From the NCBI GenBank assembly GCA_025924495.1, contig JAICIG010000191.1, forward strand, positions 1-14,147: a stretch of 14,147 nucleotides of DNA. Reading direction: 5' to 3'. Positions 1-14,147 of the stretch are shown piece by piece. Position 1 is the first letter of the stretch, and each line of letters begins with the position of its first letter. The notes beneath the pieces are model-generated. The model was not told the origin of the DNA. It did no database searches and saw only the letters and a program-made list of their open reading frames with translations. Both the position numbers and the translations under genes were made by a program. The stretch is from Pirellulales bacterium (GTDB taxonomy: Bacteria; Planctomycetota; Planctomycetia; Pirellulales; JAICIG01).

Positions 1-92
1 ATTCCGATCTGCGGCTGATTATTAATTCGGAGGTTCCCGTGAACGATGGCGGGATTGCTTTGGGGCAAGCAGCGATTGCAGCCTGCCGATAA
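1..92 (+). CDS. hypF: HypF C-terminus (carbamoyltransferase, [NiFe]-hydrogenase maturation), partial
   Basis: This is the 3' end of a gene that begins outside the window. Complete codons start at base 3 and give 29 residues before TAA at 90-92, ending in PVNDGGIALGQAAIAACR. The NDGGIALGQA block is the C-terminal signature of HypF, in its Kae1-like carbamoyltransferase domain. In known systems HypF makes a carbamoyl-adenylate from carbamoyl phosphate and ATP and passes it to HypE, where it becomes the cyanide ligand of the NiFe centre; it acts in the cytoplasm. The gene converges on the glycosyltransferase gene, with only 18 bases between the two stop codons, so they are unlikely to be functionally linked. 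Only about 4% of the usual ~750 residues is visible, so the call rests on one motif. It implies a hydrogenase maturation locus to the left. Confidence 0.75.
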   Translation, partial: SDLRLIINSEVPVNDGGIALGQAAIAACR

Positions 93-110
93 CGAGGCCG
101 GATAAATGCT

Positions 111-1229
111 TTACGGGTTCAACTTCGCGGCTCGTTCGTAGATTAACTGCGCACATTGTTCGGCGCCGTCCAATCGCAGGGCAATCGATGGTTTCGGCAA
201 TGAGAACAACTTCTGCAGCGGTTCGCGCCAGCGACCCGAGGCAAAGTCTGACTGCGAAATGTCCTGTAAGCGCACATAGCGAGCGGCCTCGCGGTCGAAG
301 ATTTCATCCTCGCGAAAATGACGGCGAGGGGGCCGCAGGATGGCCTTCTCCGCCACGATGCATTCCGACAGAATTCCGTAACCCAGCTTTGAGACTACGG
401 CATCGGCGATCTGCAAGACATCCGTGAAGTTGAGCGCCGGAGTCAACGTGACTGACGCCATGTTGTCCGCGACCGGGCTTTCATCGGTCTCGAAGTGCAA
501 GAACAGGCAGTCAGGATTCTCTCGTGCGGCGCGCTCGCGTGCGGCCAGCGGAATTCGACCGCGCATGGCCAGAATGATCCTGCGCCGCCGATCGCCCGGG
601 TTGATTTGCAGCTCTTCGAAGACCTCTTGGGGATTGCGAATTGCACGCCGCGCGGACAACGGCATGTCTCGGACCTCGCCGAACGTCTCCAAGCCGGCGC
701 CCTCGCTGAAGGGCAGCTTCAGCAAGGTTTGCATTTTTGAGTATCCTTCCCGAACCCACTCTTGTAACTGTCGCCCATTCGGGTCGCCATTCATCAATGG
801 CTCGTAAATCCAATCCCAAGTGAAATTGCCGATCCCCAGACAAGGCACGCCGGCGTCGGCTGCAATGTCTCCGGCCAGAGGCGGAAAATCGGCGACGATG
901 AGCTCGATAACTCGTTGGTTGATCCACTCCAGTTCGGTCGACTTCATTGCGTCGCGGCGGGCGTAGTAATCTGCCAACTGCGCGAGCGTCGCTTGAATAT
1001 CGACGCCGAGAGCATCAGCGTCTTCAACGACGCCTGGATCCAGCGATCTGTCTTGCCGGTGCGCGAACGTCCGCGGAATACCGTCGAATAGGTGCGCGGG
1101 CGCGCTCGTGCGGACGTGAACGGTCCAATCGGGCGCCAACGCGACAAACGCTCGGATGATGGCTGCGCTGCGCGTGGCATGCCCATAGCCGTGGCCGCTG
1201 ACGTAATACAACAACGCACGCGCCGCCAT
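111..1229 (-). CDS. GT-B fold glycosyltransferase (MurG/ARA1-N-terminal type)
   Basis: The gene encodes a 372-residue protein with no signal peptide or obvious membrane segment. It opens with a beta strand and a glycine-rich loop, YYVSGHGYGHATR (residues 8-20). This is the acceptor-side motif of GT-B enzymes of the MurG/GT28 class and of the glycosyltransferase-like domain at the N-terminus of plant L-arabinokinase. The C-terminal half has FTDVLQIADAVVSKLGYGILSE (268-289 region), the expected nucleotide-sugar binding segment. It probably transfers a sugar from a nucleotide donor, but neither donor nor acceptor can be read from the sequence. The ATG start lies 3 bases after the stop of the deacetylase gene and a weak GGAA precedes it, so it is the last gene of the operon and probably translationally coupled. 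The context suggests it glycosylates a product of the acyl-aminoketone synthase, possibly with an N-acetylated sugar that the neighbour then deacetylates; this is inference. Confidence 0.75.
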   Translation of the reverse strand: MAARALLYYVSGHGYGHATRSAAIIRAFVALAPDWTVHVRTSAPAHLFDGIPRTFAHRQDRSLDPGVVEDADALGVDIQATLAQLADYYARRDAMKSTELEWINQRVIELIVADFPPLAGDIAADAGVPCLGIGNFTWDWIYEPLMNGDPNGRQLQEWVREGYSKMQTLLKLPFSEGAGLETFGEVRDMPLSARRAIRNPQEVFEELQINPGDRRRRIILAMRGRIPLAARERAARENPDCLFLHFETDESPVADNMASVTLTPALNFTDVLQIADAVVSKLGYGILSECIVAEKAILRPPRRHFREDEIFDREAARYVRLQDISQSDFASGRWREPLQKLFSLPKPSIALRLDGAEQCAQLIYERAAKLNP

Positions 1230-1232
1230 TGG

Positions 1233-2057
1233 CTATTCCGGGAACAAGCGGCGTCGGCTTTCGTCATCGAGCGGCGCCGCATACTCGCTGATCTCGAACG
1301 CCTCGGCGTACTCGATCGAGTTTCCGCGCTCGGCGCCATAGCGCGAGATTAATTGTGAGCGATAGCGATCGGACTGCGGCCGCAAGGCGGCCAAATACCA
1401 CTGGCTCAACCAGGAGCGACGCTCGGCCGGGTCGGCTGGCAAGGGCTGCGGCTCGCGACGGTTAAACGGCAGCCACTCAAACACCTGCGAGATGTGACAC
1501 GCCAGCATGTCGACGATCTGCTCGACGTAGCGACCGACATCAATGACAACGTCTCCCGCCAAGGACGTGGGCTTGGTGAAGCGGTCGGGCATGTAGGCCA
1601 CCACCGGGTCCTGCCGCAAGATCGGGGCGTCGCGTACGATGGCCGGCACCGTCACCAGATAGGAGGCGTCTTGCACCACTTGCCCCACGGCGCGGTGGTC
1701 GGGATGGTAGTCGTTAGGACGATGAGTCAACACGAGATCGGGCCGGAAATTGCGGATTGCTCGGATGACTCCCCAACGCAGTTCGAGCGTGGGTTCCAAC
1801 TGTCCATCGTGATTCGGCCAGACCTCGGCCTCGGCGCCAATCACGGCCGCCGCCGCCAGCGCTTCGGCCTTGCGACGCGCAGCCAATGGCGCCCCGGAAA
1901 GCTCGTGGTGTCCTGCGTCGCCGTTGGTAAGCGAGACCATTTTGACAACGTGGCCGAGTCGACGATACATGGCTGCCAAGCCGCCGGCATGGAATTCGGC
2001 ATCATCGGGATGAGCGCCGAGGATCAGCAGTCGCAATGGATCGGGCACGGCAGGCAA
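1233..2057 (-). CDS. PIG-L/LmbE family zinc-dependent deacetylase
   Basis: This 274-residue protein shows both hallmarks of the PIG-L family. AHPDDAE at residues 15-21 supplies zinc ligands (His16, Asp19) and the catalytic Asp. HRPNDYHPDHRAVG at 112-125 supplies the third ligand, His121. Known members remove the acetyl group from N-acetylglucosamine conjugates: GlcNAc-phosphatidylinositol (PIG-L), GlcNAc-inositol (MshB) and GlcNAc-malate (BshB). The HISQV segment (188-192) resembles the HxSQ element of BshB-like members, so a bacillithiol-type role is an alternative, but no other bacillithiol gene is visible. The chosen start is TTG at 2055-2057. There is no ATG in the 16 codons between the upstream in-frame stop and this point, GTG at 2046-2048 is an alternative, and none has a clear Shine-Dalgarno site. 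The gene follows the acyl-ligase fusion by 101 bases and precedes the glycosyltransferase by 3. Confidence 0.85.
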   Translation of the reverse strand: MPAVPDPLRLLILGAHPDDAEFHAGGLAAMYRRLGHVVKMVSLTNGDAGHHELSGAPLAARRKAEALAAAAVIGAEAEVWPNHDGQLEPTLELRWGVIRAIRNFRPDLVLTHRPNDYHPDHRAVGQVVQDASYLVTVPAIVRDAPILRQDPVVAYMPDRFTKPTSLAGDVVIDVGRYVEQIVDMLACHISQVFEWLPFNRREPQPLPADPAERRSWLSQWYLAALRPQSDRYRSQLISRYGAERGNSIEYAEAFEISEYAAPLDDESRRRLFPE

Positions 2058-2158
2058 CGACGGACAATGGAATGAACTGACTCGGGCGTTGCCCGAAAAT
2101 ATAGTTCAACTCGCTAAAGTGTGCGAGCCCTGTTGAGCATCGCCAAATGCAAGCAAGC

Positions 2159-5100
2159 CTAGCGGCGCGCCCTTGCGGCCGCCATCGTGCGATCGCCGGA
2201 AATATGCTCGGCATATTGCGGATCGATTTTCGCCAGCTCCTCGGACAGCGCGGCAACGGTATAGCGGATCTGCTCTTCGGTGTGGTTCGACGTAATGAAG
2301 AACCGCAGCCGGGCGGCTCGCTCTTCCACCGCCGGATGAACGATCGGCTGGACATTGATGCCTCGAGCATTGAGGGCTTGCGAAAGCCTCAAGCAGAGCA
2401 GCGAATCGCCCAAAATGATTGGCACGACTGGCGTGTCTTTGCTCAGCCCTGTATTCAGCTTGCTGGCCTGCGCCAGCGACAAGAACAGCGCCGAGTTTTT
2501 GTGCAAGGCTTCGACGCGCTGGGGCTCGCGCTCGAGGAGCTTGAGGGCCGCTAAGGAAGCGGCGGCATTCGACGGCGAAATGCCCACGCTGTAAACGAAG
2601 CCCGGAGCCGTGTACTTCAAGTACTCTACGACGGCTTTGCAGCCCGCAATGTAACCGCCGCAACTGCCGAATGACTTGCTCAGCGTGCCCATCCATAAAT
2701 CGACATCGGCTGGGTTGACGTCCCAATACTCGCCGATGCCCCGGCCATGCGCTCCCAGCACGCCGGCCGAATGGGCTTCGTCCACCATCAAAAAAGCCTT
2801 GTGCCGTTGTTTGACTTCGATGAACCGCGGCAGATCCGGCACGTCGCCGTCCATGCTGTAAGCGCCTTCAATGGCGATCAGCACGCGGCGGTAGTCGCCG
2901 CGCAAATCTGCAAGCAACTGATCGACAGTCCGCCAATCGTTATGCGGGAAAGGCCTACGACGGGCGCCCGATAAGATACACCCTTGAATGATGCTGTTAT
3001 GCGCCAGGGCATCGTGCAGAATCAGATCGCCGGGGCCGAACAAATGGCCGATCGTCGTCTCGTTGGTCGAGTGCCCGCCAACGAAGACGATGGCGTCTTC
3101 AGCGCCGATCAGGCGTGAAATCGCTTGTTCCAACTCGCGGTGAATTGTCTTTTCGCCCGACACCAGGCGGCTGGCGGACACCGACGTTCCAAAGCGATCA
3201 ATCGCGTCCTTGGCCGCCTTGGAAACGACCGGATCTCCCGACATACCGATGTAGTTGTAGCTCGAAAAATTGATCAGCTCCCGACCGCCGATCATTGTCG
3301 TATCGTTGGTCACGCGCTGGTGCACGTTGAAATACGGATTACCTACGCCCAACTGCTCGACCATTTCCATGTTTTGTTTCAACCGCAGATATTCCGGATA
3401 GCGGTCGAAGCGGTAATTCTCAGGCGGAATCGACTCGGCGGCGTCTTCGGCCTTCTCGCCGCTGCCGAGGTACTGCTCGACGGCCGCGATGACTTCTCGA
3501 CAGGTCTCCAGTTGTGGCAAAACCTCTTCGGGGAAGCGGCCGCCAAAACGTTCTTCGAGGGAGGCAAGAATTTCCATCCGCTCCAGCGAATCGAGGCCCA
3601 ATTCGACGATGCTGGAGTCGAGTGTGAGGCCCTTGGCGCGTTCTTTGGCGATGCGCTGCACTTCCTCCAAAACCTGCTCGGCCGTGCTTTTTTTCTCGGC
3701 CCCTTTGTTCTCGACCGCCGGGCAATTATCGGGGCCAACTGCGGCATGACTGCCATTGGCAGAGACGGCGCCGTTGGCGCGCGACGGAATCGCGGTTGGA
3801 GCTGGCCGCGGGACCACAGGCCGCCGGGCGGCCGGCAGATCGGCGCCTGCAGCGCCAGCCAACTTTGCCTCGCGCGGACTCGACGCTTCGGAATCCGAAA
3901 GTTCGCTGCCAGCAAATTCGCCTAACCCTGACTCGCTCGGCGCCTCAATCTCGTTGACGCCCGCGACGCCCGAGGCAGCTGCGCCCGACGTGCCTTCCGC
4001 AGCCTCGGAGCGCTCGACCACCTCCAGCGAGCCGGCCAGAAAAGCGTTGCGGCAGGCGTGACGCTGGATTTTCCCGCTCGACGTCTTGGGAATGCTCCCC
4101 GACTTTACCAGCACAATCGAATCGACGATCAGCTCGTGCTCGCGCGAAACGTCGCGGCGAATTTCGGCAAAGATCCCCGCCAATTCGGTTTTTTGGCGCC
4201 GGTCGATTTCGTAGACGATCACGAGTTTCGCCTCGTCGTTGACATCCACGGTGAATGCGGCGCCGCAACCGGGACGAATCGCCTCGTGGCTCTTCTCGAC
4301 GGTCAACTCGATGTCGTGCGGGTAGTGATTCAATCCACGAATGATGATCAAGTCTTTCAGGCGACCGGCAACAAATAACTCGCCATCCTGAAAAAATCCC
4401 AGATCGCCCGTCCGCAAATACGATCCTGTTTGAGCCCCTCGTACGCGGGCGTGAAAAATCTCCGCGGTCTCGATCGGACGCTGCCAATACCCTTGCGCAA
4501 TGCTAGGGTTCGAAACCCAAATCTCGCCGACCTCGCCAGGTCCGCATAAGCTGGCCGTTTCAGGATCGGCAATGACGATTTGTTCGTCCGGCAGCTGCCT
4601 GCCGCTGCCGACAAGGCGGCGCGCCGCCTCATCCATCGCAGGCACTTCGACGACTTTCCGGCTTTCCAGCGCCTTCGCGTCAAAAGCCCGCACCACGGGC
4701 AATTCCGCCTTCAGTCCGCCGGAAACAAGCAGCGTCGCCTCGGCGAGGCCGTAGCACGGATAAAACGCCTCGCGGCGGAAACCGCATGGTTCGAACATTT
4801 CGGCAAAGCGGTCAAGCGTTTCCGAGCGCACCGGCTCCGCCCCATTGAAGGCCACGCTCCAGGAACTCAGGTCGAGTTGTGCTCGCTGCTCAGGTGTGAT
4901 CTTGCGGATGCAAAGATCATAGGCGAAGTTCGGACCGCCACTTGTCGCAGCACGGTAGCGGGATATCGCCTGAAGCCAGCGGAAGGGCCGCTGCAAAAAC
5001 GACATTGGCGACATGAGAACATTCAGCGTACCGTGATAGAGCGGCGCGAGAATTCCCCCAACCAGGCCCATGTCGTGATAGCTTGGCAGCCAGAACACGC

Positions 5101-5740
5101 CTCGGTCGGAATGGGTCAATTCGAAGGCATGGCCGATCAGCGCACAGTTGTGCAGCAAGTTGAAGTGGCTAAGGACGACTCCTTTGGGCGTACCCGTCGA
5201 GCCCGATGTGTACTGTAGAAAAGCCAGGTCTTCCCCTTGGGCCTCCGGATCTTGCCATTCAGATTCAATTCCCGTCGGCATTTCGTCGGTGGCGAGCCAC
5301 GTCAACTGCTTGAGATCGGGAGTCCCCTTAAGCAGCGGTTGGATGCGCTCGTGAACCACCGAGGTGGTCAACGCCACCTTGGCATTTGCATCGCGTGCGA
5401 TGGCATGAATTCTGTCCAGCGAACGATTCATGCGAGGCGGGTAAGCCGGCACAGCGATGACGCCCGCATAAAGACAACCGAAGAAACCGGCGACGAATTC
5501 CAAGCCGGCCGGGTAAAGCAACAAGGCCCGCTCGCCCTGCAATCCGTGCGATTGCAGCCTGGATGCAATCGCACGAGCCTGCCGGTCCAGTTCGCCGTAA
5601 GTCAGGGCAATTTGGTCCTTTTCGCCGTCCGTCAGGAAAAGGTAGCCGGTCTTTTCCGACTGATGACGAGCGCGATGCCGCGCCAGCTCCACGAGCGTCG
5701 AAGGACCAAAGAAGGATCCAGGAAGTCGCATATGATCCAC
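2159..5740 (-). CDS. Fusion of fatty acyl-AMP ligase, acyl carrier protein and PLP alpha-oxoamine synthase
   Basis: From the GTG at 5740 the protein has 1193 residues and three domains. Residues ~1-570 are an ANL-superfamily fatty acyl-AMP ligase: the P-loop YTSGSTGTPKG (177-187), the FAAL-type YHDMGL (221-226), GDLGF (445-449), GRLKDLIIIRGLNHYPHDIE (460-479) and the catalytic lysine in KTSSGKIQR (Lys557). An Ala/Ser/Pro-rich linker (~571-684) follows. Residues ~685-760 are a carrier domain with LGLDSLERME, Ser718 being the phosphopantetheine site. Residues ~775-1170 are an alpha-oxoamine synthase: HNSIIQG (His914 stacks on PLP), VDEAHSAGVLGAHGRG (Asp987, His990) and GTLSKSFG (Lys1022 forms the Schiff base). 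The SKSFG form is closer to serine palmitoyltransferase than to BioF. Predicted reaction: fatty acid plus ATP, loading on the carrier, then decarboxylative condensation with an amino acid to a long-chain alpha-aminoketone. The amino acid is unknown. It is the first gene of the operon. TTG 5755 and ATG 5731 are alternative starts. Confidence 0.9.
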   Translation of the reverse strand: MDHMRLPGSFFGPSTLVELARHRARHQSEKTGYLFLTDGEKDQIALTYGELDRQARAIASRLQSHGLQGERALLLYPAGLEFVAGFFGCLYAGVIAVPAYPPRMNRSLDRIHAIARDANAKVALTTSVVHERIQPLLKGTPDLKQLTWLATDEMPTGIESEWQDPEAQGEDLAFLQYTSGSTGTPKGVVLSHFNLLHNCALIGHAFELTHSDRGVFWLPSYHDMGLVGGILAPLYHGTLNVLMSPMSFLQRPFRWLQAISRYRAATSGGPNFAYDLCIRKITPEQRAQLDLSSWSVAFNGAEPVRSETLDRFAEMFEPCGFRREAFYPCYGLAEATLLVSGGLKAELPVVRAFDAKALESRKVVEVPAMDEAARRLVGSGRQLPDEQIVIADPETASLCGPGEVGEIWVSNPSIAQGYWQRPIETAEIFHARVRGAQTGSYLRTGDLGFFQDGELFVAGRLKDLIIIRGLNHYPHDIELTVEKSHEAIRPGCGAAFTVDVNDEAKLVIVYEIDRRQKTELAGIFAEIRRDVSREHELIVDSIVLVKSGSIPKTSSGKIQRHACRNAFLAGSLEVVERSEAAEGTSGAAASGVAGVNEIEAPSESGLGEFAGSELSDSEASSPREAKLAGAAGADLPAARRPVVPRPAPTAIPSRANGAVSANGSHAAVGPDNCPAVENKGAEKKSTAEQVLEEVQRIAKERAKGLTLDSSIVELGLDSLERMEILASLEERFGGRFPEEVLPQLETCREVIAAVEQYLGSGEKAEDAAESIPPENYRFDRYPEYLRLKQNMEMVEQLGVGNPYFNVHQRVTNDTTMIGGRELINFSSYNYIGMSGDPVVSKAAKDAIDRFGTSVSASRLVSGEKTIHRELEQAISRLIGAEDAIVFVGGHSTNETTIGHLFGPGDLILHDALAHNSIIQGCILSGARRRPFPHNDWRTVDQLLADLRGDYRRVLIAIEGAYSMDGDVPDLPRFIEVKQRHKAFLMVDEAHSAGVLGAHGRGIGEYWDVNPADVDLWMGTLSKSFGSCGGYIAGCKAVVEYLKYTAPGFVYSVGISPSNAAASLAALKLLEREPQRVEALHKNSALFLSLAQASKLNTGLSKDTPVVPIILGDSLLCLRLSQALNARGINVQPIVHPAVEERAARLRFFITSNHTEEQIRYTVAALSEELAKIDPQYAEHISGDRTMAAARARR

Positions 5741-5748
5741 GGTAAAGG

Positions 5749-5753
5749 TCCTC
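5749..5753 (-). promoter_or_regulatory. Shine-Dalgarno site for the FAAL-ACP-oxoamine synthase gene
   Basis: On the minus strand this reads GAGGA, 8 bases before GTG at 5738-5740. It is the best ribosome-binding match near the gene and favours the GTG start. The upstream TTG (5753-5755) overlaps the site and has no Shine-Dalgarno of its own, and the ATG at 5729-5731 is too far away. Confidence 0.55.
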
Positions 5754-6030
5754 AAACCAATTGGGCGCCAAGCTCAGACGGCCTTTTTTCACTCTGCTCT
5801 AAGCGAGCCGCGCGTGAAGACAAACGGGGTAACGTGGGAGAATTCGACACGCACTGCCCCCCATTCGGTCTATGATTAAGTCGATTGACCGACACAGCCT
5901 ACCATGCCGGTTTCGGCCATTCAAACGGCCATAAGCCGCCAGATCCCCCCACAAGTCAGGCGTCGTAATAAGTTTGGTCACTGTGCTGTTATCGGGCTGA
6001 ATCAAAGGACAGATTTCTCGCTTTTCGCGA

Positions 6031-6095
6031 GGTCGGAGAGTCAACCTAAATTCCCATTTTTGCTAGACTAGCGTTTCGGGCTCGTTTCTCCGACC
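6031..6095 (+). repeat. 9-base inverted repeat enclosing a smaller dyad
   Basis: GGTCGGAGA at 6031-6039 is the exact reverse complement of TCTCCGACC at 6087-6095. Inside the 47-base loop sits a second dyad, GCTAGACTAGC (6062-6072). As RNA this would form a long stem capped by an arm with a small hairpin. It lies in a non-coding gap just upstream of a terminator-like element, so it may be part of a small RNA or an untranslated leader. No known RNA family was recognised. Confidence 0.4.
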
Positions 6096-6122
6096 CATCT
6101 AGTACCAGAAGCGTCTTTGCGT

Positions 6123-6156
6123 GCCGGCCGTTACGCGGCGCGGGCGGCTTTTTTTT
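6123..6156 (+). terminator. Terminator-like hairpin with T8 tract
   Basis: GCCGGCC (6123-6129) can pair with GGGCGGC (6142-6148) with one mismatch around a 12-base loop, and eight T residues follow at once (6149-6156). This is the layout of an intrinsic terminator reading on the plus strand. No plus-strand gene is visible upstream in the gap, so it would end either a small RNA covering the inverted repeat at 6031-6095 or an antisense transcript. It could also end an aborted leader of the WD40 gene. The mismatch and large loop make it a moderate candidate only. Confidence 0.4.
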
Positions 6157-6359
6157 AAATCGCCGGCTGCGGCGCACATCCAGCGAGGCGCGGCTGAAGA
6201 CTGCAGATCTTGGGCCAGTAGACCGCACTTCCGGTCGCCCTTTGCGGCGTGACTTTCGACCGTATCATTAAGGTTAAGCGTGCGGCAGGGAAAAAGGGGC
6301 TGGGAACGGCATTTGGAGCTGCCCCAGACCAGGCAATCAATCGGGATCCGCGAATCAGC

Positions 6360-6363
6360 GAGG
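6360..6363 (+). promoter_or_regulatory. Shine-Dalgarno site for the WD40 gene
   Basis: GAGG lies 6 bases before the ATG at 6370. It supports this start over the in-frame ATG at 6280, whose extra 30 residues are basic and show no motif, whereas the protein from 6370 opens directly with a zinc ribbon. Confidence 0.5.
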
Positions 6364-6369
6364 CCGAAG

Positions 6370-7476
6370 ATGACGCAGATCCGTTGCGAGTGCGGAACAG
6401 TCTGGGAGTCACTGCCAGCAATACAGCCCGAAGCAGACAAGTGTCCCGGTTGCGGTCGAGCGCCGGGCCTCGCAGTTACCGAGGGGGGGGCGGTCCTTAA
6501 GGGTGCGATGCGAGATCACCGCCACCCGATTCGCGCGGTCGCATTCGCGCCCGATAGCCGCTTATTCGCGGCAGCGGCGGGAGCCGTTTCGTCGTCCGTA
6601 GCCAAGACGCAAATCGGCAGCACGATATTGTGGGACGTCGGCTCGAATGAGCCGGTAGCGAGGCTGAAATGGCACCGTGAAGCCGTTCTTTCCGTCGCAT
6701 TTTCCCCTCGCGACGCCTTGATGGCCACCGGCGGTCGCGACGGTTCGATTGCTATCTGGGACGTGAGCCGCGGATTGTGGGACGCTGTTCTGGCGATCCG
6801 CGAGCATTCTTGGCGGGCAAGCGGTGAAGGAATCCTCTCGTTGGCTTTTAGCGCCGACGGGCGGTGGCTTGTGTCGACCGGCGAAACGGAGTCCATCAAA
6901 ATCTGGAACGCGAATACCTGGCAGCCCGAGCGCTGCATCTCAGCGAACCGCCAAGGTCGTTGCCAGGCTGCCTTTTCGCCTTGCGGACGGTTTTTGGCGG
7001 CCGTGTGGCAAAGTCGAGGAGCCGCAGTGCTCTGGGATGTACCAAGCTGGTCGCAATACCTCGAGCTGCGGCTCAGGTCCGAAGAAGATCGGGAAGATTA
7101 TGGGTTGGCCTTCTCGCCCGACGGCAATCGCCTGGCGGTGTTGGGCGCCGGCGAGGCCCGAATCTGGGATATCGCTACTTGCCAGGTACTCACGTCGTTT
7201 CGACCCGCGAAGAGCCAGGCGATTGCCTGGTCGCATTCAGGCAAGTTGATCGTCACCGGTGGTTCGGAAACGTCAGGCAATGCGACGGTACGGCTTTGGG
7301 ACGCCGATACGGCGGCTGAAGTCGACCAACTCGCGGGTTCGCGGTCGCCCGTCACGGCAGTCGCCTTTTCGCCCGACAGCCGGCATTTGATCAGCGGCTG
7401 CCAGGACGCATCGGTGAACCTCTGGGCGATGACCGCTGAGCCCCGCCAAGTCCTAAGCCGATTCGCAGAGGGCTAG
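6370..7476 (+). CDS. Zinc-ribbon plus WD40 beta-propeller protein
   Basis: This 368-residue protein has no signal peptide or membrane segment, so it is probably cytoplasmic. Residues 1-30 form a small zinc ribbon with Cys6, Cys8, Cys25 and Cys28 (CxC then CPGC). About seven WD40 blades follow. Blade endings are seen at ILWDV (86-90), IAIWDV (127-132), IKIWN (176-180), AVLWDV (219-224), ARIWDI (263-268), VRLWDA (307-312) and VNLWAM (349-354); most blades also have an AFSPDG-like turn. Seven blades suit one closed propeller, a scaffold for protein binding with no catalytic role of its own. The partner is unknown. The gene stands alone on its strand, flanked by a divergent operon on the left and a convergent gene on the right. 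A run of eight G bases at 6483-6490 lies near its 5' end. Confidence 0.85.
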   Translation: MTQIRCECGTVWESLPAIQPEADKCPGCGRAPGLAVTEGGAVLKGAMRDHRHPIRAVAFAPDSRLFAAAAGAVSSSVAKTQIGSTILWDVGSNEPVARLKWHREAVLSVAFSPRDALMATGGRDGSIAIWDVSRGLWDAVLAIREHSWRASGEGILSLAFSADGRWLVSTGETESIKIWNANTWQPERCISANRQGRCQAAFSPCGRFLAAVWQSRGAAVLWDVPSWSQYLELRLRSEEDREDYGLAFSPDGNRLAVLGAGEARIWDIATCQVLTSFRPAKSQAIAWSHSGKLIVTGGSETSGNATVRLWDADTAAEVDQLAGSRSPVTAVAFSPDSRHLISGCQDASVNLWAMTAEPRQVLSRFAEG

Positions 7477-7622: not shown

Positions 7623-8504
7623 CTACAAGTTAAAGTCGGCCGATTGCGCGCTGCCGAAGCGAAGCGAGTCGCTAAAACCGATCTTGTCGACCATCGGCGG
7701 ATAGTTCAAGTTCGTGCTGCGGGAAATGTCGTTGTCGAAGCCTGTGTAACAATCTTCGTTGTCGCCCGCATCGGCGCCATTAGTGTAGTTATTCGGATTC
7801 AGATACTTTTCGCCAATCAGATACGTGACGCTCGTGCCGTCGGTGACTTCCGCCAGCTTCACCTGGCTGCCCTGATAGCTGATTCCGCTGAACGTCGTAC
7901 TCGTCGGCCAGCCATAGGAGGCAGCCGCGGCATAACTCGATGGACCAGGCCCGTTCTCGACGGCCGTAGAATCGCCCGCGTTGGCGGCATAGTCGACTTT
8001 AGCAACAGGATTCTGTGGTCCGGCGTTGATGTTGCTGGTGCCGCTGGCGTAAAGGACCGCCGCGCGCCGGCTGGGGCAATAATAACTGGGAACAGCAATG
8101 GCTAGCATTTGGGCCTGGAGCGTCATTTTGCTTGCGCCGGTTTGTCCCGTGCTCTTCTGAAAGATCACCTGTTGCTCAATGTATGGAAGCAAGGCGTAGA
8201 AGATACCGCCTGGCTGACTTCGCCCAAAGCCAAGATCGGGATCGCCGACGTAGTCCCAGCCCCAGCCATTACTAGGCAAGAAACGGTTGACGTCGTGATG
8301 GTTCTGAGCCCCAATAGCCATCTGCCGCAGATGATTCTGGCACTCAGTGCGGCGCGCCGCTTCACGAGCCGCTTGCACCGCCGGCAAGAGCAATGCGATT
8401 AAGATGCCGATGATGGCAATCACCACCAGCAGTTCCACCAACGTAAAACCCGCTCTGCGACCATGCTTACAGGCAAGCCCGTCGCTAATGTGATTTGCGC
8501 GCAT
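7623..8504 (-). CDS. DUF1559 pseudopilin-type protein with premature stop
   Basis: The gene encodes 293 residues. A type IV prepilin-like leader is clear: a basic stretch, then [26 protein letters not shown] (prepilin peptidase cut expected after Gly19), with the hydrophobic helix at ~20-42. The body is typical of the planctomycete DUF1559 family, with [12 protein letters not shown], the [17 protein letters not shown] helix, [26 protein letters not shown] and [14 protein letters not shown]. These proteins are probably exported and inner-membrane anchored; their function is largely unknown. The family's closing H-X9-DG motif is broken: His is Gln287, a TAG falls within the spacer, and Asp becomes Val beyond it. 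The product therefore lacks about 38 C-terminal residues and may be non-functional. ATG 8504 is chosen because GGAG lies 5 bases upstream. A frame from TTG 8606 would bury the leader. Confidence 0.85.
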
Positions 8505-8509
8505 GCTTG

Positions 8510-8513
8510 CTCC
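8510..8513 (-). promoter_or_regulatory. Shine-Dalgarno site for the DUF1559 gene
   Basis: GGAG on the minus strand, 5 bases before the ATG at 8502-8504. It fixes a start that leaves an 18-residue basic leader before the prepilin cleavage site, the usual arrangement for this family. Confidence 0.6.
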
Positions 8514-8757
8514 GCCTTCTGGTTGCCGCCTAGCGATCCCATTCAAATCATGCGTCCCCACAGTACCCGCGGCTGAATCTTGATTCAAGATGGAGCTGCG
8601 GTTCAATGGGGGCGCAGTTGTCGCTTATTTCATACAAAACTTTGAAAAATCTGCGGCGCTTCTCGGGTGTTGGCGACGACGCGATGACAGGAGTTCCCGC
8701 AACAATCGGCGGGCGGAGCTCGCGAGGATAGGCGGGAAGGCGTGCGGCCACTTCGAA

Positions 8758-10860: not shown

Positions 10861-11754
10861 TCATTGCGCTGGCGCAAGAATAGCGACTTTCGCTTGCTCT
10901 TCGCTCATTAAGCTGGTGGAACCGTCGCGCTCCAGTGCATTGACGCCGCCGACGTGATAACTGAATCGAGTGCGAGGGCCGCCCGGCAACGTGCCATCGG
11001 CGGCGCCAAAGGTGAAATCCTGCGGTTTGAGCCAGTTCACGCCCGACTCTGCGACTTCGATGATCAAATACCTGGTTTTTGGCGGCACTTTCGCGTTGCC
11101 TTTCGTCTTGCGCGGCCGATTAACCTCGGCAATCTCCGGAGGCGTCGCAAAATCGCCCGTGCTGCCGTCGACGAGCGCCAGATAGCTGGTGTGCGAGGAC
11201 TCGAATGCGGCAGGATCGCAGGGACATCCGTAAGCAGCAGGCATGAGATCCGCTAACTCTCGATTGTGCGGCCCGTTCCAGGGTTCTTCGAACCGATATT
11301 CCTTGTAGAGTGCTTCCTCCGCTTTGCCCAAGTAGGGCAGCAATAGCACTCGCCAACTATGTAACGATTCGCCTTTTGGGCCGCGCGTCACGACAGGCGG
11401 GTATGCGCTGTAGTCGTCGTAGTAGCTCTCGAGTGCGACGCCGATCCGCCGCAACTGTTCGGAGCAGCGTTCTTGGTCCATTTTGGCGGCGAGCATCCCC
11501 GCAAGAATTCGGCCGCCTAGGACGAGGCCCACGATGAGTATGCACAGCAATGCCCCGATGATGAACAACACGCGCACCGAGGAATCGCCGCGAGCGCGGG
11601 GCAAGCGCTTTCCGGCGGAAGTCTCATGCTCGCCGAGGTCGGCCGGAATCGAGACAAAGCGCCCACAGTGTGCGCATGGCCCGCTATGGCCGGCGAACTC
11701 CGGCGCTACCTGCGTGGCGGCGCCGCAATGCGGACAAATAAACAGCCCAGCCAT
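10861..11754 (-). CDS. DUF1559-family protein with N-terminal zinc ribbon and single membrane anchor
   Basis: The 297-residue product starts with a zinc ribbon (Cys7, Cys10, Cys27, Cys30; two CxxC pairs) and then a basic stretch. One membrane helix follows at ~60-86 (VRVLFIIGALLCILIVGLVLG), so the ribbon probably faces the cytoplasm and the rest the periplasmic side. The outer domain has DUF1559 features: RIGVALESYYDDYSAYPP (103-120), HSWRVLLLPYLG (132-143), EPWNGPHNR (157-165), YLALVDGSTG, and an intact H-X9-DG signature at His267...Asp277-Gly278. There is no prepilin leader, unlike the DUF1559 gene at 7623-8504. Function is unknown; the family is planctomycete-specific as far as known. ATG 11754 is preceded by GGAGAG at 5 bases; the frame extends to TTG 11814 but that adds only a basic tail. 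It lies 121 bases after the aldolase on the same strand and may share its transcript. Confidence 0.8.
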   Translation of the reverse strand: MAGLFICPHCGAATQVAPEFAGHSGPCAHCGRFVSIPADLGEHETSAGKRLPRARGDSSVRVLFIIGALLCILIVGLVLGGRILAGMLAAKMDQERCSEQLRRIGVALESYYDDYSAYPPVVTRGPKGESLHSWRVLLLPYLGKAEEALYKEYRFEEPWNGPHNRELADLMPAAYGCPCDPAAFESSHTSYLALVDGSTGDFATPPEIAEVNRPRKTKGNAKVPPKTRYLIIEVAESGVNWLKPQDFTFGAADGTLPGGPRTRFSYHVGGVNALERDGSTSLMSEEQAKVAILAPAQ

Positions 11755-11759
11755 CCGCG

Positions 11760-11765
11760 CTCTCC
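11760..11765 (-). promoter_or_regulatory. Shine-Dalgarno site for the zinc-ribbon DUF1559 gene
   Basis: GGAGAG on the minus strand, 5 bases before ATG 11752-11754. It decides the start: the protein begins only six residues before the first zinc-binding cysteine. Confidence 0.6.
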
Positions 11766-11875
11766 GAGAGATCTTTACCGGCTTCCGCGCATTCGTCCGA
11801 TGCCCCTTCGCCAAAGCTCGGCGAATCTACCATCCGCCCGATTGAACATTGGGCACACGGCAGCGTGCTGAGTTG

Positions 11876-13342: not shown

Positions 13343-14147
13343 ATGCCCTCGAGTAGGGATGTGACCGGAGGTCGCCGCGGTGGAGGCACCACCAAGAAAA
13401 ACGCGTTTTGTTCATTTTGCCGCAAAAGCTATCGCGATGTCGGTCCGTTAGTCGAAGGACCGGGCGACGTTTACATTTGCGGAGAATGCATCGAGCTTTG
13501 CCAATCCATTCTCGAACAGGAACGGCGTCGTCGAGGAACGAGCAAACAACTATTCACGAAAGTTCCCACGCCGCGCGAACTCGTGACGCAGCTCGATGAA
13601 TACGTCATCGGGCAGGACCGGGCGAAAAAGGTGTTGTCCGTGGCGGTCAACACCCACTACAAGCGGCTCATGCATGCCAGCGAGCCGGGCGATGTCGAAC
13701 TCGATAAATCGAATATTCTCCTCATCGGCCCGACGGGCAGCGGAAAGACGCTGCTGGCCCGCACCTTGGCTCGCATGCTGAACGTCCCGTTCGCCATTGG
13801 CGATGCGACCACGTTGACCGAAGCCGGCTACGTCGGCGAAGACGTCGAGAACTTGCTGCTCAAGCTGTTGCATGCGGCCGACTTCGATCTGGAGAGCGCT
13901 CAACGCGGCGTGCTCTACATCGACGAAATCGACAAGATCGGCAAGACCAGCCAGAACGTGTCGATCACGCGCGACGTCTCCGGCGAAGGCGTGCAACAGG
14001 CCCTGTTGAAGATGCTCGAAGGCACGATGGCCAACGTGCCGCCCCAGGGCGGACGAAAGCACCCCGAGCAGCAATATATTCAGATGGACACGAGCAATAT
14101 TCTGTTCATCTGCGGGGGCACCTTTGTCGGGATTGAAAAGATCATTG
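13343..14147 (+). CDS. clpX: ATP-dependent Clp protease ATP-binding subunit ClpX, 5' part
   Basis: The reading frame runs off the right edge after 268 codons of an expected ~420-440. ClpX is a hexameric AAA+ unfoldase that feeds substrates to ClpP in the cytoplasm. The N-terminal zinc-binding domain is intact: Cys23 and Cys26, then Cys46 and Cys49 after 19 residues. The ClpX-type linker [21 protein letters not shown] follows (~76-96). Walker A is GPTGSGKT (129-136) and Walker B is LYIDEID (191-197). The stretch [19 protein letters not shown] holds the substrate-contacting GYVG pore loop, and the sequence ends in the conserved [20 protein letters not shown] 13343 has a strong AAAGGAG (13331-13337) 5 bases upstream, the best ribosome-binding site in the window. 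The first ~20 residues are a variable Arg/Gly-rich tail. It is not next to clpP. Confidence 0.97.

Follow-up and report, generated by a model that had tools for sequence, protein, structure and literature searches.

A planctomycete fusion of fatty acyl-AMP ligase, acyl carrier protein and alpha-oxoamine synthase as a candidate self-contained serine palmitoyltransferase-type enzyme

The stretch of DNA analysed here (the window; 14,147 nucleotides, contig JAICIG010000191.1 of a Pirellulales bacterium) encodes on its minus strand a fusion protein composed of a fatty acyl-AMP ligase (FAAL), an acyl carrier protein (ACP) and an alpha-oxoamine synthase, which we discuss as a candidate for the enzyme that starts sphingolipid synthesis, followed by a PIG-L-family protein and a GT-B-fold glycosyltransferase-like protein (Table 1). 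An earlier note on this DNA had described these three genes and proposed that they form one operon for a sphingoid-like aminoglycolipid. The arrangement on the minus strand was confirmed, with gaps of 101 bases between the fusion and the PIG-L gene and of 3 bases between the PIG-L and the glycosyltransferase gene, and so was the composition of the fusion, by its Pfam domains. No support was found for an operon serving a shared pathway; promoter- and terminator-like sites in positions 1–6400 of the window occurred only at the rate seen in shuffled sequence.

Table 1. Features of the window, with the evidence on which each assignment is based.
Feature	Position	Strand	Evidence
Fusion of fatty acyl-AMP ligase, acyl carrier protein and alpha-oxoamine synthase	2159..5740	-	Pfam, NCBIfam, PDB sequence matches
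PIG-L/LmbE-family N-deacetylase-like protein, 274 aa	1233..2057	-	Pfam PIG-L, both motifs
GT-B-fold glycosyltransferase-like protein, MJ1255/Glyco_trans_1_3 type, 372 aa	111..1229	-	Pfam, AlphaFold2 model, PDB folds
WD40-repeat protein, divergent from the fusion and upstream of it	6280..7476	+	Pfam WD40
DUF1559 protein with prepilin-type N-terminal methylation motif	7623-8606		Pfam
Second DUF1559 protein	10861-11814		Pfam
Start of clpX (ordinary) with its zinc finger and AAA domains, truncated at the end of the window	13343-14146		Pfam

The reading frame of the fusion opens at a TTG at position 5755 (1198 residues), and an in-frame GTG at 5740 (1193 residues) is the likelier start because it is near this point that the majority of the 15 relatives in alignment A1 start. 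This alignment comprises 16 sequences, those of the relatives and that of the window, and residue numbers given here refer to the 1198-residue frame. Pfam assigns an AMP-binding domain (27–424), a DIP2-like AMP domain (468–579), a PP-binding domain (693–758) and an Aminotran_1_2 domain (826–1170). The acyl carrier protein is recognised by PF00550 at 43 bits and its D722-S723-L724 stretch is invariant in the alignment. The conserved lysine, histidine, aspartate and arginine of the alpha-oxoamine synthase family are present: Lys1027, expected to carry pyridoxal phosphate (PLP), together with His919, Asp992, His995 and Arg1151, is invariant in 16 of 16 sequences, as is Ser723 of the ACP. The roles of these synthase residues we take to be those given in the literature on serine palmitoyltransferase (SPT).

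The N-terminal half is closest to FAAL-type chains. Its top NCBIfam models are one nonribosomal peptide synthetase/polyketide synthase model and FAAL models, none of them above cut-off, and its best matching PDB chains are 7r7e (named ‘polyketide synthase’, 673.7 bits) and saframycin synthetase B, followed by the acyl-AMP ligases FadD32 and FadD23. The fusion as a whole matches acyl-AMP ligases and SPTs in the PDB. Of 7,993 candidates scored with the ACP-synthase half as query, 5,496 proteins of 0.55 to 1.75 times the size of the fusion matched at E ≤ 1e-60, far beyond chance, although not every one of the 5,496 need be a fusion; many of the named proteins among the best 120 matches listed are from Pirellulales. 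In the fusion, a known enzyme module takes a new form, united in one chain.

Related architectures were seen elsewhere. At three loci, an acyl-AMP ligase of this kind is joined to a clearly divergent synthase (L300 in genome G063, 3018–6785; L301 in G052, 260–3964; L015, 8261–11878), the synthases being 31%, 36% and 30% identical to that of the window, respectively; swapped domains or an independent origin of the fusion are hinted at by this. A Planktothrix plasmid carries a gene annotated as a polyketide synthase that ends in an oxoamine synthase (L161, 3608–11206) near a fatty acyl-AMP ligase and glycosyltransferases, and a Streptomyces plasmid encodes a protein annotated as a bifunctional short-chain dehydrogenase/reductase (SDR) oxidoreductase/aminotransferase (L163, 1079–5116), the synthase part of which is 38.6% identical to the window's.

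The distribution of the fusion was surveyed in an order which we infer to be Pirellulales. In a broader set, 284 of 296 genomes of one order contained a match at 1e-120; because part of these matches are other acyl-AMP ligases, the fractions given below refer to a more specific count in 97 genomes. The ACP-synthase part was found in 76 of them (1e-100). The earlier note had remarked on the absence of a keto reductase and an N-acyltransferase; neither stands beside the fusion in the window, and a gene of the YghO type, the N-acyltransferase, does occur elsewhere in related genomes. At 1e-5, homologues of YghO were detected in 81 genomes, with 31–39% identity in nearly full-length rows. Both genes were present in 75 genomes and neither in 15, while six had the acyltransferase only and one (G061) the fusion only, so that a YghO homologue accompanies the fusion synthase in 75 of the 76 genomes having the latter. 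Fisher's exact test gives p = 5e-12 for this association, kinship not being corrected.

Three of the six genomes with the acyltransferase only have particular features: G010 has a stand-alone SPT-like gene, in G037 the fusion is cut at a contig end, and G063 has a divergent synthase in frame. Among the genomes scored as having neither, G069 likewise has a fusion cut by the contig end. Kinship was considered with an rpoB tree, which covers 94 of the 97 genomes (without G061, G037 and G094; three rows are less than half filled), on which the acyltransferase changes four times. In independent pairs of genomes differing in the fusion, the acyltransferase differed in the same direction in two or three and in the opposite direction in none, the rest being unchanged. 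The strict scoring gave seven such pairs and the relaxed one, which counts G072 and G063 as fusion-positive and omits G069 and G101, gave four.

Stand-alone SPT-like genes (at least 65% identity to L144) were found in six of the 97 genomes, in seven copies, and all seven adjoin a YghO homologue; the gene order was read directly for G003, G028, G044, one copy in G046, G010 and G055, and is otherwise taken from coordinates. This homologue therefore goes with SPT in this order. In G038, it is the fusion itself that adjoins a YghO homologue. A stand-alone enzyme as the general SPT of the order was considered and rejected, only six genomes having one. A CerR-type homologue was seen beside the YghO homologue at two places, in G015 and, over 118 residues, in G048. 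At six loci (L195, L196 and L198–L201), the YghO-type position is flanked by consecutive genes for an ABC ATPase, an FtsX-type permease and an HlyD-type protein, possibly a lipid exporter, judging by domains named from L199 only.

Taken together, these data make it fairly probable that the fusion is a self-contained SPT-type enzyme starting the synthesis of ceramide-like lipids in this planctomycete order. According to this model, the N-terminal ligase would activate a free fatty acid as acyl-AMP, as is expected for its family. The acyl chain would then be loaded onto the built-in ACP, as suggested by the order of the domains and by AasR and AcpR of Caulobacter (see below), and the C-terminal PLP enzyme would condense the resulting thioester with an amino acid, in all likelihood serine, releasing CO2. 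The product would be 3-oxo-sphinganine or a near analogue. A YghO-type N-acyltransferase and a CerR-type reductase, both expected elsewhere in the genome, would supply the second chain and reduce the ketone, respectively, and the PIG-L and glycosyltransferase genes would be dispensable for the route. The sphingoid-like chemistry put forward in the earlier note is thus retained as the best reading because the fusion fits acyl activation and SPT-type condensation; the conserved three-gene aminoglycolipid pathway is not.

Several observations weigh against this reading. The sign test on the independent pairs gives p = 0.25–0.5, the independent events being too few for it to reach 0.05, so the association is not significant once kinship is counted. 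G061, with the fusion and no acyltransferase found, has no rpoB match and lies outside the tree test. G048, G072 and G101 have the acyltransferase without a scored fusion synthase and remain exceptions; in G072, a long frame without a synthase match reaches the contig end and was scored as fusion-negative in the strict table. The fusion falls short of the curated SPT models, with 298.8 bits against a cut-off of 640 for SerpalmtaseCFB and with 260 against 500 and 214.6 against 670 for two others, and likewise of the bioF equivalog (342 against 426). Since no equivalog cut-off is reached, the substrate is not fixed by sequence, and the substrates, the product and the order of the steps given above are those we infer.

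The synthase might therefore be of the same design and use another amino acid, such as alanine or glycine, or a short or unusual acyl chain, in which case it would make no ceramide precursor and would yield a specialised metabolite, an aminoketone or a 1-deoxy base. We consider this rather unlikely. The missing equivalog assignment is in line with it, and synthases 56–58% identical to the window's reside in frames of 2,564–2,588 residues in eight of the 97 genomes (G024, G040, G070, G078, G085, G095, G100 and G104); moreover, the Planktothrix plasmid gene annotated as a polyketide synthase holds a synthase of 57% identity, and alanine is named as an alternative Spt substrate in PMC11334938. 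The near-universal occurrence of the fusion and its co-occurrence with the N-acyltransferase nevertheless fit a membrane lipid better than a specialised product. Formation of 8-amino-7-oxononanoate for biotin by the fusion is very improbable, even though bioF is the best-scoring synthase model and many relatives are so named by JGI: besides the score below the cut-off, the trees described below place the fusion away from BioF of E. coli and Bacillus, the protein includes a fatty acyl-AMP ligase and an ACP of its own, and the two closest genomes compared have four and three further matches to the synthase family outside the fusion.

The families assigned to the two neighbouring genes in the earlier note were borne out. 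The PIG-L protein matches PF02585 with 100.8 bits (cut-off 28.2) and contains the AHPDDAE and HPDH motifs, which have a role in binding zinc in this family; it remains below the BshB1 equivalog cut-off (105.8 versus 182.5 bits). By sequence, the glycosyltransferase is a weak match to Glyco_trans_1_3 (28.7 bits, cut-off 25). Its AlphaFold2 model has a predicted local distance difference test score (pLDDT) of 92.3 and finds its best PDB fold matches in macrolide glycosyltransferases such as OleD, and the predicted GT-B fold with two Rossmann domains is supported by this confident model. Among 7,998 candidates scored from all proteins, the family has 615 members at 1e-10.

That the three genes jointly make an aminoketone lipid bearing an aminosugar, as originally proposed, appears distinctly unlikely. 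Tight spacing on one strand is in its favour, as is the proximity of a PIG-L gene (at least 58% identity) within 6 kb of the fusion in three of 19 genomes with both (G038, G044 and G069) against 0.04 expected, where the 6 kb limit was set after looking, the expectation ignores the fragmentation of assemblies, and the fusion of G069 is cut by a contig end. There is also a hint of a glycosyltransferase on the same contig in two of the seven closest fusion relatives listed: P0001 and P0003 seem co-located with the glycosyltransferase relatives P0242 and P0246, judged solely from identical contig sizes (10,632 and 581,147 bases) and sources in the rows listed. In both closest genomes compared, G013 and G032 (fusion 76% and 74% identical), however, the trio is split over three contigs each, and neither the PIG-L nor the glycosyltransferase gene comes within 1.4 kb of a contig end. 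The contig of G013 stops about 0.4 kb past the fusion, and because 3 kb or more separates its PIG-L and glycosyltransferase genes from the ends of the contigs that carry them, the spacing of the window is excluded there too; in G032, a different gene follows the fusion. The glycosyltransferase was found in only two of the 97 genomes (1e-30), against 40 for PIG-L (1e-60) and the 76 given above for the fusion, and although the thresholds differ among these counts the gap is large. Where PIG-L lies near the fusion, it is always upstream (once on the same strand, twice on the other), whereas in the window it is downstream. Close PIG-L relatives (62–71% identity, two of the five matches being partial) occur in G021, G050, G060, G077 and G084, which belong to one branch and have neither the fusion synthase nor the ceramide-type acyltransferase, and on the rpoB tree PIG-L, used as a control, does not follow the fusion.

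None of 32 other fusion loci compared in gene order has all three genes, although some of these loci end within a few kb and the gene caller used on them overlooked the PIG-L gene of G044, found by another search. Among 80 loci searched, only part of them true fusions, one weak PIG-L match at 31% and no glycosyltransferase appeared, and neither was found at L081–L110, which have short flanks. The fusion has no generally conserved neighbour: in 33 loci of differing size, the window included, the most frequent one occurs at 12 and the next (KsgA-like by eye) at 8. The earlier note had named absence of the trio from relatives as grounds for refuting its proposal, and this is largely what was seen. 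The proximity of PIG-L and a possible co-location of the glycosyltransferase survive, and support for a three-gene pathway goes no further than a linkage that may be recent. The two sugar-related genes are probably only local neighbours of the fusion, the PIG-L protein probably an accessory or unrelated one and the glycosyltransferase probably a lineage-restricted one, whose linkage to the fusion may hold at about the genus level.

On the other side of the fusion, the WD40 gene stays beside it in both closest genomes compared (L117 in G013 and L118 in G032, same cluster). Further out, Pfam finds in the window, besides the genes in Table 1, a ClC channel, a KDPG aldolase and a small SHOCT-like frame. 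DUF1559 proteins of the kind seen here are common in planctomycetes.

The kinship of the synthase domain was examined in a tree of 52 rows with fusion synthases and other synthases, in which the sampling of eukaryotes is thin, with two LCB2 sequences (Arabidopsis and yeast) and no LCB1. The fusion synthases, together with a cyanobacterial ACP-synthase and the end of the Planktothrix polyketide synthase, form a branch that is sister to LCB2 with a support of 98 (99/87 under a mixture model). A tree of 40 rows omitted long branches (plpar_L156, FUS_L015, SDRAOS_Streptomyces, AOS_Bglumae, AOS_BfragPlasmid and plpar_L155), near-duplicate fusions (L081, L084, L085, L011, L110, L098, L005 and L009) and two divergent fusions; here, the sister relationship of fusions and LCB2 reached 100/98, and in a tree that includes the two divergent fusions it was 99/97. 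FUS_L015, from Bacteroidetes, fell outside the clade of fusions wherever it was included in a tree. Clade tests with p values of 0.231 and 8e-6 were not used because the groups named in them omitted the two divergent fusions.

Plain scores agree with the trees only in part. With Arabidopsis LCB2 as query, the fusions come first (250 bits), followed by two cyanobacterial synthases, the Streptomyces synthase (216) and the best bacterial SPT (196), while with yeast LCB2 the margin is small (217 for the fusions versus 204 for a Bacteroides SPT). Against the synthase of the window, four synthases outside its clade outscore LCB2 (225 bits), with a planctomycete SPT-like protein at 236 and the Streptomyces synthase at 234. 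A search of all proteins with LCB2 was uninformative on bacterial kin, all the named proteins among the best 120 of 7,148 being from plants. In the 40-row tree, one branch with a support of only 92/93 sets LCB2, the fusions and the bacterial SPTs apart from KBL, BioF and ALAS; the 52-row tree has no such branch. The approximately unbiased (AU) test does not reject a grouping of the fusions with bacterial SPTs in place of LCB2 (p = 0.156, and 0.176 with 40 rows).

We put forward with much reserve, and as a somewhat doubtful proposition, that the fusion is an ancient all-in-one planctomycete SPT and the nearest known bacterial kin of LCB2, and that eukaryotes took their catalytic subunit from this enzyme lineage rather than from the stand-alone SPTs of Bacteroidota or Proteobacteria. 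A bacterial origin has been described for the SPT of apicomplexans by Mina and colleagues (PMC5519370), in the main text of which the string ‘planctomycet’ does not appear. If the proposed role is correct, planctomycetes would gain a defined and near-universal first enzyme of sphingolipid synthesis, the fused design of which might allow the chain to be handed over within the protein. A route for free fatty acids into long-chain bases that bypasses coenzyme A (CoA) could be explained in this way, and the enzyme would be a bacterial candidate for the origin of eukaryotic LCB2.

Among the systems described, the closest in parts are those of Caulobacter and E. coli BL21. For Caulobacter, PMC9386255 reports that 3-oxo-sphinganine formation needs spt, acp and aasR, and that AasR, the counterpart of the BL21 ligase, loads acyl chains selectively onto its dedicated partner AcpR, with neither CoA nor the housekeeping ACP serving as acceptor; the same paper, in the main text of which ‘fusion’, ‘fused’ and ‘planctomycet’ do not occur, lists yghO as the BL21 N-acyltransferase gene for dihydroceramide. 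In E. coli BL21(DE3), a gene annotated as fatty acyl-AMP ligase is followed in a row by those for an NAD epimerase-type protein and an ACP and by spt, and yghO adjoins them. The fusion shares with AasR/AcpR/Spt the combination of a fatty acyl-AMP ligase, a dedicated ACP and an SPT-type enzyme, its parts being 36% (ligase), 33% (ACP, over 52 residues) and 32% (SPT) identical to those of BL21, but it unites in one polypeptide what three genes encode there, its synthase belongs to another branch of the tree, and unlike the BL21 operon, the window has neither a reductase nor an N-acyltransferase beside it. Ding and colleagues reported Spt-like proteins in 138 Planctomycetota genomes and deduced planctomycete sphingolipids from metagenome genes (PMC11334938); ‘fusion’ and ‘fused’ are absent from that paper, and no description of a ligase-ACP-synthase fusion of this kind was found in the open-access literature searched, as far as its text was accessible.

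The N-terminal half resembles fatty acyl-AMP ligases in matching FAAL models and PDB acyl-AMP ligases. The usual partners of such enzymes are polyketide synthase or nonribosomal peptide synthetase modules, whereas here the ligase is fused to an ACP and an alpha-oxoamine synthase. The gene on Planktothrix plasmid p3 (NZ_LR882937, annotated as type I polyketide synthase) has a terminal oxoamine synthase of the same clade and differs in having no direct fatty-acid-loading fusion with it. LCB2 is a membrane subunit that acts with LCB1 on acyl-CoA, whereas the planctomycete fusion carries its own ligase and ACP. The synthase of the window is 33% identical to Arabidopsis LCB2, and the lysine loop of the yeast protein differs. 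LCB2 is the sister branch in the trees, and Arabidopsis LCB2 has exactly the same lysine-loop stretch as the window, KSFGSCGGYIAG.

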